Below, in pieces: positions 27,467 to 35,726 of a stretch of 64,000 bases of DNA. The notes beneath the pieces were generated by a model. That model worked only from the letters and a program-made list of their open reading frames with translations, was not told the DNA's origin and ran no database searches. Both the position numbers and the translations under genes were made by a program. The stretch comes from Bacteroidia bacterium (GTDB lineage: Bacteria > Bacteroidota > Bacteroidia > B-17B0 > Aurantibacillaceae): contig JAEUTQ010000082.1 in assembly GCA_016787445.1 (NCBI GenBank), positions 62,001-126,000 on the forward strand, read 5' to 3'. Each line of letters begins with the position of its first letter. The first letter of the stretch is position 1.

Positions 27467-27477
27467 TAATTATCATA

Positions 27478-27560
27478 ATTTTTGTATCTTCATATAACCT
27501 TTTGTGGTTGGAGATAGTGGACGTTCGAAAATCCCACCGAACCCCAACCCCTTAACTGAT
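27478..27560 (+). repeat. attC-like half site a (3' half only)
   Basis: It contains the TTTGTATCTTCATATAAC element and a 3' arm (GGTTGGAG...CCCCAACC) closely resembling sites h and j, ending in a divergent R' (CTTAACTG). There are only ~12 nt between the upstream stop codon and this element, so R'' and the 5' arm are missing. It marks the left end of the recognisable array. Confidence 0.6.
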
Positions 27561-27623
27561 AGCACTCACTTATAATAATCGAAAAATACTATTATAATTT
27601 ACTTTACAATGCAAGGATAAAAA

Positions 27624-28187
27624 ATGGATACACGTATAAGAATTTCGTTAGACGAATTTAAAACATTTACAACTACCGAACATAAATATCCACTCTCAGA
27701 TTATTTCGACAAATTTGTCGATCATCTTGCTAATGATATTCTAAACATAAATACCGGTGCTGAGTTCTACAAAAAACTGACACGTGGTCAAAGGATTCTT
27801 TGGAGTTATAGCAACCTAACTGGTCAAATAGAAAATGGCGGTATAAATCAATTTTATTGGAATTATGGTTCCGACTATTTTGAAGACGTGAAAGATGTAA
27901 TGTCTATAATCAAAGACACAAAGTTTACCTCACTCATCTTTAAATACCAAGAAAAGTTTTTAAAGTCAAAAGAGCTTTTAATTAATTACAAATACCTAGA
28001 CAAAAAAGAACCTGAACTAAAACTAGGCCAATACGATCCTAATGCGGAATACGTGAATTATTACGGCCTCTGGAGTAATACATTTGGCGGTAACGACCTA
28101 GACAGTTATTATTATTCTAACAGCAAGACGTTGGACCAATTTATTATTGATTATATAAATAATAATCCTGAAGAATTTATAAAATAA
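27624..28187 (+). CDS. Cassette 1: DUF4375 (DMP19-type) protein
   Basis: This 187-residue cytosolic, mostly helical protein carries the DUF4375 signature IENGGINQFYWNYGSDYFED in the middle (residues ~70-90). DUF4375 covers DMP19-like proteins; DMP19 of Neisseria mimics DNA charge and binds a repressor, but most members have no known role and often occur in accessory or polymorphic-toxin contexts. It lies between half site a and site b, with a start 6 nt after GGATAA. Confidence 0.75.
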   Translation: MDTRIRISLDEFKTFTTTEHKYPLSDYFDKFVDHLANDILNINTGAEFYKKLTRGQRILWSYSNLTGQIENGGINQFYWNYGSDYFEDVKDVMSIIKDTKFTSLIFKYQEKFLKSKELLINYKYLDKKEPELKLGQYDPNAEYVNYYGLWSNTFGGNDLDSYYYSNSKTLDQFIIDYINNNPEEFIK

Positions 28188-28189
28188 CT

Positions 28190-28377
28190 AGTACTAAAAC
28201 CACATTTACAATATACGGGCAATCACGGGTTATCGCTTCAGCCGCAATGCATTCTACGCAGACAGAATATTTGTTGCGGCTTTCGCTAAAAAACATTTAT
28301 CTTTAAATATAGTTTTTCGGGCATAGACTGTTGAGGGCAAAAAAGCCGCACAGCGTAAATCCGGGGAACGTTAGTGG
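28190..28377 (+). repeat. attC-like site b
   Basis: The 5' part is GTACTAAAAC, then CACATTTACAATATACGG; the 3' part is CCGCACAGCGTAAATCCGGGG, then R' GTTAGTGG (28370). The arms ATTTAC-N2-T-N-T-N-CGG are complementary. Inside are GGTTATCGC, an AGCCGCAA/TTGCGGCT hairpin and TTTATCTTTAAA. It is close to site i. Confidence 0.8.
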
Positions 28378-28408
28378 TAAAACATTGTTGAATGGTAATG
28401 ATTCTAAC

Positions 28409-28900
28409 ATGACAAGTAAACTCCGTTATAAAACCTCTTGGCCATTATTCAAATTAAATAAATTTATTCTTCCTATTGTCTTTTTAATAATTTGTCTCCG
28501 GTTTCAAGCAGACGAATGGACTTTTGTTGCAGTTGGAATTTGGCTTTTATTTGAAATTGCTGACTTAGGATACAAAGAGTATAAATTATATACAGACAAA
28601 ATTGTAATAAGTAAAAAGCACCTTCTTTTTCCAATTAATAAGATTGAATTCGAATTACCTTTAAAGCGTTTAATAGATATTGAGTTTGAGCCTGGCTTCT
28701 TCGATAAAGCAACATTTATTGCTTCAACAATCGCTACATTATTAAATTTTCGTGGACGAGGTAAAGCAGATAACGACCATGTTGTAAATATCACTTATTA
28801 CAACGAGTTCACTAAAGAAACCCATACTGAAACTTTTCAATTCGACCACAGATTTACTGAATTACCAGACATAATTAAAAAAACACTACCTGTTAAATAA
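28409..28900 (+). CDS. Cassette 2: membrane-anchored protein of unknown function
   Basis: The ATG at 28409 is chosen (163 residues); an in-frame TTG at 28331 lies inside site b and would add site-derived residues. Two hydrophobic stretches (residues ~17-32 and ~38-52) precede a soluble C-terminal part (~60-163) with an alternating beta pattern reminiscent of PH-like domains in small bacterial membrane proteins. No catalytic motif is visible. It begins 32 nt after the R' of site b. Confidence 0.7.
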   Translation: MTSKLRYKTSWPLFKLNKFILPIVFLIICLRFQADEWTFVAVGIWLLFEIADLGYKEYKLYTDKIVISKKHLLFPINKIEFELPLKRLIDIEFEPGFFDKATFIASTIATLLNFRGRGKADNDHVVNITYYNEFTKETHTETFQFDHRFTELPDIIKKTLPVK

Positions 28901-28942
28901 AATCAGAGGCCAGATATGCAAGACATAGCTGATTGACAGAAA

Positions 28943-29118
28943 TACTATATATACCACATTTACACTATGTGGACGGACACTGGTCATCGCTTGAGCCACA
29001 AAGCCTGCTAAGAAGAAATTATATTTATTATGGCTTTCGCTAAAAAACATTTGTATCTTTAAGTATACGTTTCGGTAGCCGCAATCATTAACGTCGGCTG
29101 CACGCGGAACGTTGGCTT
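28943..29118 (+). repeat. attC-like site c
   Basis: It has TATATACCACATTTACAC at the 5' side, a GGTCATCGC box, CGCTAAAAAACATTTGTATC, and a 3' arm ending in ACGCGGAAC and R' GTTGGCTT (29111). The R'' box is degenerate. The last ~65 nt are almost identical to sites e and g. Confidence 0.72.
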
Positions 29119-29166
29119 CAAGTGCCGCGACCAGACAGACAGACGACTCTAAATATTATAACTTAT

Positions 29167-29631
29167 ATGAAAAGATTGACAGTAATTTTTGTTTTACTAT
29201 TTCTTAAGACTATTCATATCAATGCGTGTCAATGTGGACAAATACTTTCAGCTAATAAAGCCTTTAAAGCGGCCGAAGTTATTGTTTCGGTTAAAGTGCT
29301 TAAAGTTTTATCTTCCATTGACCCTAAAGAAAAAGTAATTTCAAAAAGCGGCGATACCTTAATTAGAGAACCTGTTTATGGATACTCTAAACTATTGCTC
29401 GTGACAAAGACTTATAAAGGTGCGCTGACAAGTGACACAATAATTATTGACGGTGATAACTCGAACTGTGAATTTGCTCTTGAGGTTGGTAAATCCTACA
29501 TTATATATGCAGACTTTAAAAATGGTCACATCCAGACAAACCGGTGTACAAGAAGTGGACAACTTGCAAATCATCCCGACATCACATTTTTAGAACGCAA
29601 ACTTAAGGGACAAAAGAAAAACAAGACTTAA
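29167..29631 (+). CDS. Cassette 3: secreted TIMP/NTR-like cysteine protein
   Basis: The ATG at 29167 gives 154 residues with a signal peptide ending near IHINA and mature N-terminus CQCGQ. The pattern (N-terminal CxC, a strand region VIVSVKVLKV, then TYKG, CEFALEVGKSYIIYAD and NRCTRSG) resembles NTR/TIMP-like domains found in bacterial secreted proteins, with four cysteines suited to two disulfides. The role is unknown. A longer GTG frame from 29122 starts too close to the site and lacks a leader. Confidence 0.72.
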   Translation: MKRLTVIFVLLFLKTIHINACQCGQILSANKAFKAAEVIVSVKVLKVLSSIDPKEKVISKSGDTLIREPVYGYSKLLLVTKTYKGALTSDTIIIDGDNSNCEFALEVGKSYIIYADFKNGHIQTNRCTRSGQLANHPDITFLERKLKGQKKNKT

Positions 29632-29650
29632 ACTTTGTGGCGTCACCAGA

Positions 29651-29835
29651 CAGCTAACAGCACATTTACCTTATGCGCGGGAACGTCGGTCATCGCGGCG
29701 CGCAAGTGCTAAGGCCCCTTCGGGACTTTTTATTTGCGGCCGCTAAGAAACATTTGTATCTTCATATTAACGTTAGTGGGTTTAGACAGGTGATGCTACG
29801 AAAGCGCACAAGGTAAATCTGCAAAACGTTATAGC
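29651..29835 (+). repeat. attC-like site d (best arm pairing)
   Basis: R'' CAGCTAAC (29651) is followed by AGCAC and the arm ATTTACCTTATGCGC. The 3' arm GCGCACAAGGTAAAT (14 of 15 positions complementary) is followed by CTGCAAAAC and R' GTTATAGC (29828). It has a GGTCATCGC box, a terminator-like AAGGCCCCTTCGGGACTTTT hairpin and TTTGTATCTTCA between the arms. Confidence 0.88.
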
Positions 29836-29959
29836 GTATAGGGGCGGATAAATCTTCGTAAACAAATTTTTATCTCAATAATAGCTGATGTGATATACTA
29901 AGCAATTCATTTGCAAACAGACAATGTTTTGATTAAATTTATGCTAGACTCAAAACAAC
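29836..29959 (+). other. Long untranslated leader of cassette 4
   Basis: Between site d and the ATG at 29960 lie 124 nt with no ORF and no close match to the other cassettes, whose leaders are mostly 5-70 nt. It is AT-rich with a short G-rich start. It may hold a cassette-specific promoter or leader; nothing conclusive was seen. Confidence 0.4.
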
Positions 29960-30169
29960 ATGAATACAAAAATTCTTTTCGCCTTAATAATTAGCTTTAT
30001 TGTGACAGCTTGTAAGAAAACGTATACATGTAGTTGCTCAAATCCAGGTGGTGTTTTTAAGACATATGAAATAAAAGACACTAAGAAAAAAGCCGAGCAA
30101 AAATGCAGCGAGTACTCCAAGGAATATCAATCAGTTCCTTTTTCAGAATCAGGCTGCTATTTAAATTAA
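29960..30169 (+). CDS. Cassette 4: small lipoprotein
   Basis: This 69-residue protein has a lipoprotein leader (LFALIISFIVTACKK) and a short mature part with YTCSCSNPGG and two more cysteines. The pattern TCxCxxPGG followed by a Lys-rich helix and a C-terminal Cys recurs in small Bacteroidota lipoproteins of unknown function. It lies between sites d and e. Confidence 0.72.
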   Translation: MNTKILFALIISFIVTACKKTYTCSCSNPGGVFKTYEIKDTKKKAEQKCSEYSKEYQSVPFSESGCYLN

Positions 30170-30194
30170 TCTTACATTCTTACTGTAGACATTC

Positions 30195-30401
30195 ATACGG
30201 TTCATAAGCGTTATGCGCTCTACGAAGTTGTAAAAGTGGCGCGCGGCTTCGGGCTGATCATGCTTCGACAAGCTCAGCACAGGTTTTGTTGCCGGCGCGT
30301 AGCAAAAAGTTGGGACTGAGGTAAAATTTTTATTTGTATCTTTAAGTAAACGTTTCGGTAGCCGCAATCATTAAAGTCGGCTGCACGCGGAACGTTATAG
30401 G
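30195..30401 (+). repeat. attC-like site e, apparently interrupted
   Basis: The 3' half is intact (TTTGTATCTTTAAGTAAACG, arm, R' GTTATAGG at 30394) and almost identical to c and g. The 5' half is poorly matched and contains CTTCGACAAGCTCAGCA near 30265, a sequence that looks like a dispersed genomic repeat. R'' is not recognisable with confidence. Confidence 0.65.
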
Positions 30402-30468
30402 TAATTGGCGGGGACATTTCCGTTGACTAATTGCTAGCAGACAAATAACAAATAAAGCCATCGAAAAC

Positions 30469-30699
30469 ATGACCGACAAGGTGACAATCGAATTAACAAA
30501 AGACGAAGCATTGGTTCTCTTCGACTTCCTTGGACGCTTTAATCAAGTCGACCACAAAAATATATTTGAAGACCAAGCAGAGCAAAAAGCACTTTGGGTA
30601 GTTGAAGGCCAACTTGAAAAGACTTTAGTTGAGCCTTTTATGCCAAATTACATTGAGCTAATAAAAGAATCCCGTGACAAAATTCGTGACGAAGAATAA
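30469..30699 (+). CDS. Cassette 5, first gene: small acidic protein
   Basis: This 76-residue, soluble, acidic, helical protein opens with VTIELTKDEALVLFDFLGRF and continues with FEDQAEQKALWVVEGQLEK and a VEPFMPNYIEL segment. Similar short proteins with this pattern exist in diverse bacteria without known function. It starts 68 nt after site e and is followed 19 nt later by a second gene in the same cassette. Confidence 0.7.
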   Translation: MTDKVTIELTKDEALVLFDFLGRFNQVDHKNIFEDQAEQKALWVVEGQLEKTLVEPFMPNYIELIKESRDKIRDEE

Positions 30700-30718
30700 T
30701 TAAAGCGAACTCTTTAAA

Positions 30719-31045
30719 ATGACAATTTTAGACAAGGCAAAAAATTACTACCGGACAAATTCACCTGATTTAGACTCGTTTCTTGAAACAACTTCTTTTA
30801 TGGACACAAGCACAAAATATCCAAATAGTGTTGTAATAAAGTTCGGAGTAAATAAGCTTATCGGAGAAGTTTCCGTATGGCAAAATGATTACGAAAGTTA
30901 TATAGAAAGCGAATCTCTTGACCTTACTAATCCAGACAAAGAAATGGTTTGCTCATACAAGGCTGTTAATAGTGATACAGTTGTTGACGAATTAACCAAA
31001 CAGTTTGACGCATTGCGTAAGCTGTGTGGCGCCAACAACCTATAA
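30719..31045 (+). CDS. Cassette 5, second gene: unknown protein ending inside attC
   Basis: This 108-residue soluble acidic protein has no recognised motif. Its last codons and TAA stop (31043-31045) lie within the R'' box of site f, so part of the C-terminus (GANNL) is encoded by the recombination site. It shares a cassette with the small gene upstream, so the two proteins may act together; no toxin or antitoxin signature is visible in either. Confidence 0.68.
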   Translation: MTILDKAKNYYRTNSPDLDSFLETTSFMDTSTKYPNSVVIKFGVNKLIGEVSVWQNDYESYIESESLDLTNPDKEMVCSYKAVNSDTVVDELTKQFDALRKLCGANNL

Positions 31046-31230
31046 CAGCGGTCGTGGCGACAATTTTTCTTTTGCGCTCCCACAGGCATCGCGCGGAAAA
31101 TTTGTCGGCCGAAGGCCGGACTTTAAACGCTAGCCCTAAAAAAGAAGTTCAAAATAAAATCATTATCTTTATTACAAGGTTTCTGGAAAGCGCAAAAGCA
31201 AAACTGCTCCAGTCCGCAAACCGTTAGCAC
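31038..31230 (+). repeat. attC-like site f
   Basis: R'' ACCTATAAC (31038) is a perfect complement of the start of its own cassette, GTTATAGGT (30394), and a poor match to the R' in the same site, GTTAGCAC (31223). The arms GCGGTCGTGG / CCAGTCCGC pair imperfectly. It contains GGCATCGC, a strong GTCGGCCGAAGGCCGGAC hairpin and TTATCTTTATTAC. Confidence 0.85.
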
Positions 31231-31283
31231 TAATAGGACAGACGACGACTCGGCCGATAAAAAAATAATCTTTCGACAATAAT

Positions 31284-31679
31284 ATGTTAGAATACTTAAA
31301 GACGAACTGGCTCAAATTAATACCTTTATTGCTAATTGTTTTAGTAGTCTTTTTTTGTTCGCGGACAAACAAACGAGTCGACAAACTTCGACATGATGGC
31401 AAATTGACTTTCGGACGGATTACAAAAATTGAAAAAGGGAATAAAGCAAAAATATTCTTTAATTATGAATTTCAAACTGCCAGCGGGACTGTTGTTTCCA
31501 ATAATGAAAGTGAGTTATTAAATAATTATAATTACTTCCTCAATAGGTACTTCCCAGTAATCTACGACATCGAAGATCCAAACAATAGCGAATTATTAAT
31601 AATTCCTCATCAATTTGAAGTTGTAGGTCAAGTTTTTCCTGACAGCCTCGCTTGGGTTAAAGCGTATATTGTAAAATAA
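31284..31679 (+). CDS. Cassette 6: membrane-anchored DUF3592-like protein
   Basis: This 131-residue protein has one N-terminal membrane helix (KLIPLLLIVLVVFFCS, residues ~11-26) and a small beta-rich domain (LTFGRITKIEKG, AKIFFNYEFQTASG, YFPVIYDIEDPNNSELLI) of the kind seen in DUF3592 proteins. Role unknown. Cassette 9 has a similar domain layout. The stop lies directly at the beginning of site g. Confidence 0.68.
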   Translation: MLEYLKTNWLKLIPLLLIVLVVFFCSRTNKRVDKLRHDGKLTFGRITKIEKGNKAKIFFNYEFQTASGTVVSNNESELLNNYNYFLNRYFPVIYDIEDPNNSELLIIPHQFEVVGQVFPDSLAWVKAYIVK

Positions 31680-31834
31680 ATACTTTATGCGGACACGGGT
31701 TATCGCTTAAGCCACAAAGCCTGCTAAGCAGAAAATATATTTGTTGCGGATTTAGTTAAAAAACATTTGTATCTTTAAGTATACGTTTCGGTAGCCGCAA
31801 TCATTAACGTCGGCCGCACACGGAACGTTAGCGG
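31680..31834 (+). repeat. attC-like site g (R'' missing)
   Basis: The site starts directly after the cassette 6 stop, with CTTTATGCGGACACGGG aligning to the inner arm of other sites; no R'' box precedes it. GGTTATCGC, TTTGTATCTTTAAGTATACG and R' GTTAGCGG (31827) are intact. The 3' half is almost identical to sites c and e. Confidence 0.72.
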
Positions 31835-31867
31835 TAATGCGCCAATACATCGAAATAAATTTGACCA

Positions 31868-32593
31868 ATGATACGAGCCATTAATTTTCTGTTCATCCTG
31901 ACCATAATATTTACGGTTTCGTGCTCGTCTCCAACAGACAAAAAAACAAACTCAGAAATTAAAATTGACACTAAAAAAACTACTAATTCATCATTAATAG
32001 TTGACAGTTCCTCAGTTCCAGAAAAGGTTGACAGTCCTTCTTCTCTATTCCTTGAAATGACAAACTATCTTGACAGCTCAGGTTATTCGTTTGATACAAC
32101 TCGCTTGAAAAAAGTTCACTATCGTTTACAAAACAAAAATGGATTAGTTTTCGCGGATAAGTATTTTTATAAAATAGTCCTACCTGACCATTCTGCATTT
32201 GACACGGTAGAAGTCCTCAAAGGTTATAGTGGCATAGACATTAAAACTATAAAAAAGGACTTACTCAAAAAAGCAAAGGGCATTTTTGCCTACTTCTATT
32301 GCGAGAAAATCAAAACAGACGAAGTCGTAAGAGACGGAGTAATTGAAGAATGGCAATTTCATAACGAGGAAGACGCTGAAAAAGCAGGCCTTGAATTAAA
32401 CAGAATTCGAAATTTTACATTCTTTTACACAGCTTCTTATGTTACAAGGACAAAGAATAATATTTATGTTTTTCACAATCGCGCTGCCTTTAACCGAGTT
32501 CATCAAAACACCATAAAACACTTTTATAAACTTTTTGATGTTGTTTATCCGCAAAATGATTACCCGAAAGGTGACCAAGTGACAAATCATTAA
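31868..32593 (+). CDS. Cassette 7: lipoprotein of unknown function
   Basis: This 241-residue lipoprotein has leader FLFILTIIFTVSCSS and a Ser/Thr/Lys-rich linker (~22-55). A folded domain of ~180 residues follows with no motif I recognise; it alternates helices and strands and has aromatic residues near the C-terminus (FYTASYVTRTKNNIYVFHN). Asp is mostly GAC. It lies between sites g and h. Confidence 0.72.
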   Translation: MIRAINFLFILTIIFTVSCSSPTDKKTNSEIKIDTKKTTNSSLIVDSSSVPEKVDSPSSLFLEMTNYLDSSGYSFDTTRLKKVHYRLQNKNGLVFADKYFYKIVLPDHSAFDTVEVLKGYSGIDIKTIKKDLLKKAKGIFAYFYCEKIKTDEVVRDGVIEEWQFHNEEDAEKAGLELNRIRNFTFFYTASYVTRTKNNIYVFHNRAAFNRVHQNTIKHFYKLFDVVYPQNDYPKGDQVTNH

Positions 32594-32640
32594 AGTAACT
32601 CGGTAGACGTTTGACGTATCAAACTGTGTGTGGCGCACAA

Positions 32641-32828
32641 CTGCTAACACACGGTGTGGCGACCAGCGCGCGGACTGAGGGTCATCGCGGCGCGCAGAAG
32701 AAATGGCCCGCAAGCGGAATTTAATTTGCGGGCGCTAATTTTGTTTGGTATCTTTAATAAACGTTTTAGGGTGTAGACGGTTGAGTGTTTCAAAGCCCGC
32801 CGATCGCCAACCGTGAAACCTTTAGCGG
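32641..32828 (+). repeat. attC-like site h (cut-site G replaced by T)
   Basis: R'' CTGCTAAC (32641), then the arm CACGGTGTGGCGACC, pairs with GATCGCCAACCGTG before R'. R' reads TTTAGCGG (32821), with T in place of the usual G. It contains GGTCATCGC, a GCCCGC/GCGGGC hairpin and TATCTTTAATAAACG. Confidence 0.85.
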
Positions 32829-32849
32829 TAATTAATCGAACAGACCAAA

Positions 32850-33377
32850 ATGCTAAAAACAATTAAAGACATTTTCACAAAAACCAAGCAATCCGACAAA
32901 TCGTGGGAAAAAAACCGACTTCGTTTTGACAGCATAATTAGCGACAAGCGATTTAACTTTCTTGAAAGCATTTATAAAAGACTTTTCGATAATGATAATA
33001 GGTTGACAAACGATGAAATTCTTGACGCTTATTTCAAATTTTCCGACAAAATTCAAACAAACTCGTTTGCAGCAGCCGAACTTGAATGGGTGACTATTTC
33101 TGTTCTATGCCATTTCCGTCCAAACCTGACAGAGAAATTAATAAGGAGAGGTTTGTTGAATATAGTTTATTCTCTAGGTGACGACATAGATTGGTTCACA
33201 GTAGAACAATTTATAGACAGGAGAATTTTGGATGACAAAGCGGAACCTTATGGAGGACTACCACCAAATATTGGACAAGAATGGCTTAAAAACTTATTGC
33301 CGGTTCAAAAGGAAATGGTGCAGAAAGTTTTAGTAGACGTTATTGAAGAAAACAGAAAAGAACGTGAAAATATTTAA
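32850..33377 (+). CDS. Cassette 8: cytosolic helical protein of unknown function
   Basis: This 175-residue soluble, helix-rich protein has no signal peptide or membrane helix. It contains FLESIYKRLFDNDN, SFAAAELEWVTISVLCHF and YGGLPPNIGQEWL; no known family recognised. It starts 21 nt after site h and ends 3 nt before R'' of site i. Codon choice (GAC for Asp, ACA for Thr) differs clearly from core genes in the window. Confidence 0.68.
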   Translation: MLKTIKDIFTKTKQSDKSWEKNRLRFDSIISDKRFNFLESIYKRLFDNDNRLTNDEILDAYFKFSDKIQTNSFAAAELEWVTISVLCHFRPNLTEKLIRRGLLNIVYSLGDDIDWFTVEQFIDRRILDDKAEPYGGLPPNIGQEWLKNLLPVQKEMVQKVLVDVIEENRKERENI

Positions 33378-33570
33378 CTACCGCTAACACCACATTTACA
33401 ATATGCGTGCAGTCACGGGTTATCGCTTCAGCCGCAAAGCCTGATACGCAGACAGAAAATTTGTTGCGGCTTTCGTTCAAAAAACATTTATCTTTAAATA
33501 AAGTTTTCGGGTATAGATTGTTGACGGCAATTAGCCTTAAAACGTAAATCAGGGAAATGAACGTTAGTAC
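33378..33570 (+). repeat. attC-like site i
   Basis: R'' TACCGCTAAC (33379) is a 9-of-10 complement of its own cassette start TTTAGCGGTA (32821), whereas the R' of the same site is GTTAGTAC (33563). It contains CACATTTACAATATGCG, GGTTATCGC, AGCCGCAA/TTGCGGCT and TTTATCTTTAAA. It is closely similar to site b. Confidence 0.87.
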
Positions 33571-33610
33571 TAATTACCGCGGACATTTCGTTAGACGAAT
33601 TGACATACAT

Positions 33611-33934
33611 ATGAAATCTTTATCGAAACGTTATATTATTATTTCATATGTTATTGGAATCATCCTTATTATTATTCTTTCGTGGAGTAATTTTATCACG
33701 AAAGAAACAAAGGAAGAATTAATTACGCACGGAAAAGTTTGTAAAGCGACAATTATAAAAACTGCTAATAGGAAAAGAGGTCTTGACATCCAATATGAAT
33801 ATTTTGTAGCGGGTAAAACATATACCAGCTGGGACAAAGTTTATAATGATAGTTCGCAAACTGGGGACGAAATTGAAATAGTTTATCTTCCTAACGAGCC
33901 TTCTATAAGCAGACTAAAATCTGAAATAGAATAA
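33611..33934 (+). CDS. Cassette 9: membrane-anchored DUF3592-like protein
   Basis: The ATG at 33611 is used (107 residues); an in-frame ATG at 33557 lies inside site i and would displace the helix. One membrane helix (IIISYVIGIILIIILSW, ~9-25) precedes a compact beta-rich domain (KVCKATIIKTANRKRG, IQYEYFVAGKTYTSW, GDEIEIVYLPNEPSIS) typical of DUF3592-like proteins. Function unknown. Confidence 0.72.
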   Translation: MKSLSKRYIIISYVIGIILIIILSWSNFITKETKEELITHGKVCKATIIKTANRKRGLDIQYEYFVAGKTYTSWDKVYNDSSQTGDEIEIVYLPNEPSISRLKSEIE

Positions 33935-33981
33935 AATTTATGCGGACACGTGGCTAAACGTGTCTTTGTGGCGGTAACTAA

Positions 33982-34170
33982 CTACTAACACACGGTGTCG
34001 CGAGCAGCGGGGCGGATTGATGGTCATCGCGGCTAGCGGAATTATGGTCGCTGACGCGAAATATTTTTGCTGACGCTAATTTTGTTGAGTATCTTTAATA
34101 AAACATTTTGGGTTATACTTCGGTACGAGCAATAAAGTCCGCCGAACGCCAGCCCCGAAACCGTTTGCAG
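33982..34170 (+). repeat. attC-like site j
   Basis: R'' CTACTAAC (33982) with the preceding GGTAACTAA mirrors its own cassette start GTTAGTACTAATTACC (33563); the R' in the same site is GTTTGCAG (34163). It contains GGTCATCGC and GAGTATCTTTAATAAAAC. Its 3' arm resembles site h. Confidence 0.83.
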
Positions 34171-34191
34171 CAATAGCCGCGAAAAATTATT

Positions 34192-34674
34192 ATGACAGTT
34201 TCTTATATATTATTCGCATTGTTTGTACTATTTGTTTTCTTTCGGGTTTTTATTCAATGGAATAATGTCGAAAAAAAACCTGAGGACATTGTTGAAGAAA
34301 TTCAAAATTCATTCAATGCCCGATTGACAGAAACTACTTTAAAACAGTTTGACCACTTTAAAACTTTGAATTCCCCTGAAATATTAAAATCATTAGAGCT
34401 TTACAAAGATGGCTTAACAGTAAATGTTGTTTTTGTAAGGTATAAATATGTAGTTCCAAATAAAATCCGTTGGTCACCGCCTGACGATATTTCTATTTAT
34501 GCTTTCTTTATTATATCAGCAGACAGCTTTAATGTAGGCGACTATCCTATTATTGATACAACAGAAGTTAAAAACAATTCTGTTCTAATCCGTTTTGACA
34601 GAGTACCTATTTCATTAAAAAAGACGACATCAGAAATAAAACAAGTTCTTTCGACTGTAAAAAGTTTTGCATAA
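34192..34674 (+). CDS. Cassette 10: membrane-anchored protein of unknown function
   Basis: This 160-residue protein has an N-terminal membrane helix (VSYILFALFVLFVFFRVF, residues ~3-20), then a soluble domain of ~135 residues with no family I recognise. The C-terminal part contains strands around TVNVVFVRYKYVV and SVLIRFDRVPISL. It starts 21 nt after site j. Confidence 0.68.
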   Translation: MTVSYILFALFVLFVFFRVFIQWNNVEKKPEDIVEEIQNSFNARLTETTLKQFDHFKTLNSPEILKSLELYKDGLTVNVVFVRYKYVVPNKIRWSPPDDISIYAFFIISADSFNVGDYPIIDTTEVKNNSVLIRFDRVPISLKKTTSEIKQVLSTVKSFA

Positions 34675-34706
34675 CTGTGGACACCTAAGTAATAATTAGT
34701 GAAGTA

Positions 34707-34971
34707 CAGCAAATAACAAAGTGTTAGCCTCATTTTGTTCTTCGTAGATAATTTCTCGGCTGATAACAAACTGTGCGAATTTAAAAATCTTACCGCGCCT
34801 TCCGTTTTTTGTCCATGCCTTGTTCTGCATCGAGGTGGATAAAACATCACAAGCAGACGCTTATTCGCTAGCCTTATTTCGGGTCTGACACTATTAAATA
34901 ATTTGTATCTTTATTCTAACAAATTTTCTGGAAATCGCAGGTAATACCGTCAACACCCGGAAAGTTAGTGG
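34707..34971 (+). repeat. attC-like site k (degenerate 5' half)
   Basis: CAGCAAATAAC (34707) partly complements its own cassette start GTTTGCAG. The 5' half is long and diverged: GCATCGAGG is the only trace of the conserved box. TTTGTATCTTTATTCTAAC and R' GTTAGTGG (34964) are clear. Confidence 0.65.
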
Positions 34972-34978
34972 TAATATT

Positions 34979-35584
34979 ATGAAAACAACAACCACAATAT
35001 TTATTTTGACATCAATATCATTTCTCTCTTGTAATAATGGCGACAAAATAAAGGGAGACGATTCAATTAGACAAATAACCATAAGCACTGAATCATCAGT
35101 AAAAGGGGAAAATAAAGTGAACGACATGCAGGAACTGTTTACTGACTCAATAAATAATCTAACAATCGGAGACTGTTTTATTTTAAAATCTGAAAAACTA
35201 AATAAAGGTTTCGTATTGACCCGTATTCGAAAAGACCTATATGATTTTACCCCGGTAACATTAGATTCAACCAAAAAGGATTTAAGTAATTTCACCAATG
35301 GCAATATGAGAATGGTTCCTGTCGCCTCAATGAAAGGGGTTGTTGAAAACTGGGGAACAGAATGTTTAAGTTTAATGGGACAAGAAGATTTAAACGAATT
35401 TTTAAAATCATTTAAAAAGGTTGGACAATTGGAATTTAAAGATAAAGCTCCAAGAGTGAGTTCATCTTGCTACTTAACCGAATATAGTGCCTTGAAATTA
35501 AAAGAGTTCTTTAAGGAACAAGAAATGATGTGGATAAACCAAAACAAAACAGTAGGCCTCGATTCACTCGTTATGCAAAAGTAA
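34979..35584 (+). CDS. Cassette 11: lipoprotein of unknown function
   Basis: This 201-residue lipoprotein has leader TIFILTSISFLSCNN and a mature domain with no recognised motif, containing TIGDCFILKSEKLNKGFVLT and a Cys in a WGTECLSLMGQ segment. The ATG is only 8 nt after R' of site k, so any promoter must lie inside the site. It is the last gene of the array; no full site follows, though CATTAACAC at 35592 may be a remnant R''. Confidence 0.7.
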   Translation: MKTTTTIFILTSISFLSCNNGDKIKGDDSIRQITISTESSVKGENKVNDMQELFTDSINNLTIGDCFILKSEKLNKGFVLTRIRKDLYDFTPVTLDSTKKDLSNFTNGNMRMVPVASMKGVVENWGTECLSLMGQEDLNEFLKSFKKVGQLEFKDKAPRVSSSCYLTEYSALKLKEFFKEQEMMWINQNKTVGLDSLVMQK

Positions 35585-35726
35585 CACCACCCATTAACAC
35601 AGTCCTTTCATCAGAAGGCATAATCATTCATTACTCAACTCAATCTATTAATAACACCAACTCACCTTAAGTTTAATCTCAATTTTCTCCATTATTTTTT
35701 ATCTTTATTCCATTAATTAATATACC

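Follow-up and report, generated by a model that had tools for sequence, protein, structure and literature searches.

An array of attC-like sites and cassettes in a Bacteroidia genome, and a candidate integrase without the IntI additional domain

The cassette array of the window

The window analysed here, a stretch of 64,000 nucleotides, is part of contig C17 of a Bacteroidia genome of 3.77 Mb in 83 contigs. An array of attC-like sites and cassettes was delimited on its plus strand at 27467-35640 (ends approximate) through repeat families and intergenic sites. No PF00589 match is present on contig C17, and the array is thus without an integrase on its own contig. In this, and in the partial decay of its sites, it resembles the CALINs, i.e. 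attC clusters devoid of an integron integrase (PMC9024848). It should be noted that the canonical attC model is used to call CALINs, and that the sites of the window are attC-like, delimited by their repeats; Rfam, searched at the gathering threshold, gave no match.

All the features of the window array described here lie on the plus strand. Cassette f begins with GTTATAGGT (30394-30402), which is complementary in 9 of 9 positions to the R'' box of its own site, ACCTATAAC (31038-31046). The R' of that same site, GTTAGCAC at 31223 (GTTAGCACT in our feature list), matches this R'' in at most 6 of 9. Site f extends from R'' to R' over 31038-31231 and, in the circular form, is predicted to fold with an R box and an L stem. 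Sites h, i and j likewise combine an own-start match with a predicted fold. Cassette h starts with GTTAGCGGT (31827-31835), which fits in 8 of 9 positions the R'' ACTGCTAAC (32640-32648) of a site that runs to the R' CTTTAGCGG at 32820 (32640-32828); here the same-site R' is similar as well. Cassette i starts with TTTAGCGGTA (32821-32830), where a T replaces the G of GTT, and matches 9 of 10 positions of the R'' TACCGCTAAC (33379-33388). Its site (33379-33571) ends in the R' GTTAGTACT at 33563, and the sequence found there, GTTAGTAC, is the start of cassette j. Finally, site j (33982-34171) has the R'' CTACTAAC (33982-33989), which agrees with that own start at 33563 in 7 of 8 positions, and the R' GTTTGCAGC at 34163, which reads GTTTGCAG. 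A previous examination of the window, from here on the sequence-only reading, had pointed to sites f, i and j as cases in which R'' complements its own cassette start and the R' of the same site is different; the three are present in the sequence as it quoted them.

Other sites of the array are decayed. Site g (31680-31835) conserves its 3' half and has lost R'', with an own match of only 6 of 9, and site k (34675-34972), with the 3' end GTTAGTGGT at 34964, matches its own start in 7 of 9 positions, no higher than other starts. Altogether, the own-start match is clear in four of the ten cassettes, and R'' is decayed or missing in the other six. As to the content of the cassettes, proteins with DMP19-like (PF14300) and DUF3592 (PF12158) domains are encoded at 27624-28187 and 33611-33934; the remaining cassette proteins tested had no Pfam match, and PADLOC gave no match for ten cassette proteins of the window.

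Complementarity of R'' with its own cassette start

The sequence-only reading proposed to test, over further cassettes of the genome, whether complementarity to the own start exceeds that to the same-site R'. For each of 31 cassettes on six contigs, we scored the best 9-nt match in the 5' region of the site against its own start, the same-site R' and the other starts. The mean match was 7.90 of 9 for the own start, 6.39 for the same-site R' and 6.47 for other starts. The own-start sum, 245, was reached by none of 100,000 permutations, the highest of which gave 222, and the own start exceeded the same-site R' in 25 of the 31 cassettes, with five ties and one loss. When neighbouring starts were used (-2, -1, +1 and +2), the means were 6.37, 6.80, 6.39 and 6.76, the own start being the best of the five. 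The excess is present, and the outcome that would have refuted the sequence-only reading did not occur. Taken alone, the window gave an own-start sum of 70, which 1,834 of 100,000 permutations equalled or exceeded (p about 0.018); this signal is weaker because several of its sites have lost R''.

Because the cassette starts on the six contigs were chosen by eye, some bias is possible. Free of it is a test in relatives with a detector blind to R'', in which sites were located only by their inner L boxes and by the AACA and GTT anchors. In this assay 27 of 33 successive pairs matched their own start in 9 of 9 positions, a same-site match of at least 8 appeared in two of the 33, and the own-start sum of 277 compares with 217 for the highest of 10,000 permutations. 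For five non-fitting pairs, we suspect a missed site between the two.

According to the accepted definition, a cassette starts at the first T of R' (PMC2674596), and the observed pairing follows from it. R'' would pair with the TT end at the start of its own cassette because cassettes are circular and join or leave the array between the G and the TT; the R' seen in the array is not matched by R'' because it is already part of the following cassette. Pairing of R'' with its own start is a normal trait of integrons, so that the pattern which the sequence-only reading found remarkable is real and at the same time textbook; the unusual features are the integrase and the site shape.

The junction itself is sharp. 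In 26 near-identical site pairs, not all of them independent, identity is high as far as GTT and 1.0 at each of its three bases, then drops to 0.42 at +4 and remains at about 0.35 beyond. Such an abrupt divergence is the footprint expected for a recombination point at GTT. Cutting between G and TT is known integron chemistry. The earlier proposal of circular cassettes inserted by such a cut is supported by the own-start pattern, which it predicts and which holds both across the genome and in relatives; the exact bond, because GTT is invariant, cannot be read from the sequence.

Predicted site folds and the integrase of contig C74

To describe the anatomy of the sites, we folded the bottom strand of 62 chained sites as it would read in the circular form. 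Since the own-start match had served to select them, the R box was imposed; the L stem, too, was partly required to match. With this reservation, the outer R box was formed in 61 of the 62 predicted folds and comprises 9-10 pairs. A spacer is present in one-sided form: a 4-nt bulge (4,0) on the R'-L' arm was observed in 54 of the 61 folded sites. Furthermore, 50 of the 61 carry 1x1 mismatches, and one-sided single-base bulges are rare (seven on the R'-L' arm and three on the R''-L'' arm). The central spacer of known attC sites is two-sided, and their R''-L'' arm bears two or three extrahelical bases (PMC2727003). In the predicted folds such bases are rare on that arm, and the long R box, the one-sided bulge and the mismatches that replace extrahelical bases set these sites apart from those of integrons. 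As in integrons, the sites are inverted repeats of the form R''-L''-L'-R', R'' pairs with the own start and the bottom strand is the more stable one (55 of 62 sites, the fold energies being single-strand predictions). From R'' to R', most sites span 116-119 nt, and many of those from the own genus span 158-218 nt. In addition, a -7-like motif (TAnnTTTG or TATCTTT) occurs in 24 of the 62 sites against 3.2 in shuffles. The full promoter pattern TTTG-N-TATCTTT was not enriched over chance in the window, and related sites share sequence; because of both, a promoter role for the motif is only a suggestion.

A DNA search located the site family of the window also on contigs C13, C14, C26, C40, C50 and C74. 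On C74, a gene for a 377-aa tyrosine recombinase (L031 10118-11251) is followed by three co-directional cassettes. The protein has an SPxD C-terminus, as integron integrases do. It scores 210 bits with the IntI model TIGR02249, below the cut-off of 265, and 224 bits with the XerA-like NCBIfam model NF040815, above the cut-off of 220. Its alignment to the V. cholerae integrase 2a3v is split in two, most of chain residues 180 to 246 having no counterpart, and the IntI additional domain (around patch III) is missing in comparison both with 2a3v and with IntI proteins of the same phylum. In a tree of 44 rows the C74-type integrases form one group (97/92) and IntI another (100/100), and the relation of the C74-type clade to IntI and Xer is unsure because the tree program warns of long branches. 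The AlphaFold model (mean pLDDT 80.5, pTM 0.48) predicts an N-terminal alpha/beta domain, which integron integrases do not have, a core-binding domain and a catalytic domain, whose packing is unsure given the pTM. The nearest folds are XerA and IntI, the best match among solved structures being XerA (5hxy). In sequence and core fold the protein is thus closest to XerA-like recombinases (NF040815, 5hxy), and differs from them in the extra N-terminal domain, the SPxD C-terminus and the cassette array behind its gene. Ahead of the integrase, this genome has a KilA-N/ORF6N-like gene (L031:9329-9970), the resemblance being judged by eye.

Relatives of this integrase were found in most of the members of the genus and family that were searched, mostly in single copy; at the level of the class, 53 of 295 genomes have one (E below 1e-90). 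To examine their surroundings, 80 public loci were taken from Flavobacterium, Algoriphagus, Pelobium, Saprospiraceae and others. A strict detector requiring the AACA and GTT[AG] anchors was applied, which at a score of at least 17 gives one background match per 104 kb; it replaced an earlier chain detector without the full anchors that produced too many chance chains. On the integrase strand, 87 sites were detected in 223 kb downstream, compared with one on the opposite strand and one in 400 kb upstream. A downstream site match is present in 27 of the 33 loci with at least 2.5 kb of downstream sequence. In 42 of the 45 cassettes examined, the longest ORF runs in the direction of the array, the co-oriented one-ORF arrangement of integron cassettes. 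The first cassette mostly starts 94-111 nt past the matched gene, and in this gap of about 100 nt a pattern is conserved, with TATA at -9 to -6, A at -1 and then GTTA. Containing the core GTT, it would represent an attI-like junction. Integrase transcription toward attI, in the cassette direction, is also known from the reversed integrons of Treponema, where the integrase is treated as IntI (PMC3607928), unlike the C74 integrase, which has no IntI domain.

In 22 of 40 relatives with at least 50% identity, no more than 1.4 kb of contig follows downstream of the integrase gene; breakage of assemblies at repeated sites would have this effect. Nine upstream counts also fell under 1.4 kb, with values of 1260-1338 where 1,500 nt were stored; these look like artefacts, the alignment seemingly starting before the stored match. 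In our genome, the 84-base site stretch at the end of C13 is also found at the end of C14 (L032:1-84 and the end of C14); repeated sites probably broke the assembly, which would leave the cassettes undercounted.

Some further observations concern individual loci. In G002 and G007 another gene separates the integrase from the first cassette; a gene similar to the KilA-N/ORF6N-like one separates the integrase of G007 from its array, and G002 has such a gene at the corresponding position behind the integrase (coordinates in the relatives, L068:1920-2456 and L072:1710-2239). The array of C50 (L034:9500-9577) begins with CCTATATGGAAGTTATAGG, which resembles CCTATATGGGAGTTA behind the G002 integrase and is possibly an attI left after loss of the integrase. 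Integrase relatives also appear on contigs labelled Ignavibacteria (L182) and Azoarcus (L198), which points to transfer or to mis-binned contigs. A cassette gene of C14 (L033:9379-10275, minus strand) encodes a CAP12/Pycsar TIR domain (PF10137, 118 bits), a possible anti-phage effector.

Origin of the array and its meaning for the Bacteroidia

We consider that the window carries partly decayed, integrase-less cassettes of integron type, whose likely driver is the 377-aa integrase of C74, acting in an IntI-like manner at GTT without the additional domain. To this reading we assign a probability of about 0.8. It is backed by the own-start rule in this genome and in relatives, the sharp junction at GTT, the site family behind the integrase on C74, the one-sided linkage of integrase and array in the public loci with its attI-like sequence, the cassette ORFs on the array strand, the downstream contig breaks, the uniform predicted hairpins with their more stable bottom strand, and the site-free loci of the other recombinases of the genome. 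Each cassette would begin with TT and end in an attC-like site, whose R'' would pair with this start in the circular cassette. The C74 integrase, or an earlier copy of it, would have driven the array of the window; on C74 it is followed, past an attI-like junction, by cassettes whose sites are of the same family. As IntI does, the enzyme would capture and release cassettes by recombining attI, at GTT, with the attC-like site in the form of its folded bottom strand. In IntI, the additional domain contacts the extrahelical bases (2a3v structure). The C74 enzyme would work without this domain, and on hairpins from which one-sided extrahelical bases are mostly absent, and an enzyme without the contacting domain would thereby be using sites without the bases to be contacted. 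Against this enzyme as the driver stands that the domain missing from it has been described as characteristic of IntI and necessary (PMC9668308). A different enzyme of the cell could act on the cassettes, the adjacency of the C74 integrase to its own array is no proof that it built the array on C17, and in G002 and G007 the gene that intervenes before the first cassette also speaks against the reading.

Among the other explanations, the plainest is that the sites are dispersed repeats whose R'' resembles the start through shared composition or through the TAAC/GTTA ends. The sites are clearly repeated and all of them have these ends in common; yet shared ends lift all comparisons equally and only the own start stands out. 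With only the five variable bases, the relatives gave 4.39 for the own start against 1.97 for the same site and 1.85 for other starts. The permutation tests refute this explanation, to which we give practically no weight, and uphold the opinion of the sequence-only reading that plain repeats hardly account for the pattern. A second alternative supposes that the integrase is a chromosome-dimer or housekeeping Xer recombinase beside which arrays merely collect. It can invoke the XerA-like model that the protein passes and XerA as the best solved structure, but the genome has two other Xer-like recombinases (C23 and C38), the loci of its other recombinases are free of sites, and the linkage to arrays is one-sided and strand-specific, all of which makes such a role very improbable.

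Somewhat less improbable, and still unlikely, is that these are canonical cassettes moved by a standard IntI since lost from the genome, the C74 recombinase being an unrelated neighbour. Elsewhere in the phylum sample many genomes have a canonical IntI, 105 of 395 being over the cut-off (G077 among them). At some of these canonical loci own-start chains were also found by a looser search, which imposed the own match and is a rough positive control only; the strict L-box search detected no linked arrays there. This explanation is opposed by the genome itself, which has no IntI over the TIGR02249 cut-off; by the phylum sample, in which only one genome listed as of the same class has one; by the nearly fixed distance at which C74-type integrases precede the first cassette in many genera; and by sites that, as predicted, fold without the usual extrahelical bases.

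With integrons (IntI/attI/attC; class 1 and the chromosomal integron of Vibrio cholerae) the system has in common the tyrosine recombinase, the attI-like junction, the co-oriented cassettes and the own-start pairing. It works like an integron but fails a defining feature of IntI, and is not filed here as a canonical one. We lean, with some reserve, towards the existence of an integron lineage proper to the Bacteroidia. It would comprise an integrase clade separate from IntI and without the additional domain, many members having the N-terminal alpha/beta domain; an attI about 100 nt past the 3' end of the gene; hairpins known by the one-sided bulge and mismatches instead of extrahelical bases; and some promoter-like attC sites. 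No description of this system was found in searches of open-licence full texts. Likewise, in passages on an integron-like tyrosine recombinase subgroup (PMC8138268), no mention was found of cassette arrays for its insertion-less members.

In a survey, complete integrons were almost absent from Bacteroidetes (PMC9024848): only In0 had been known before, to which one complete integron in Salinibacter was added, apart from relatives in Chlorobi and Ignavibacteriae. What is unexpected here is the machinery, an integrase without the IntI domain together with the shape of its sites, and not the own-start pairing. If the arrays are active, many Bacteroidia, Flavobacterium species included, would possess a cassette-capture system that escapes searches based on the IntI domain. 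Defence genes may move in this way, a CAP12/Pycsar-type protein with a TIR domain being the product of at least one cassette. It would also become testable whether the additional domain and the extrahelical bases are essential for folded-strand recombination or are one solution among several.
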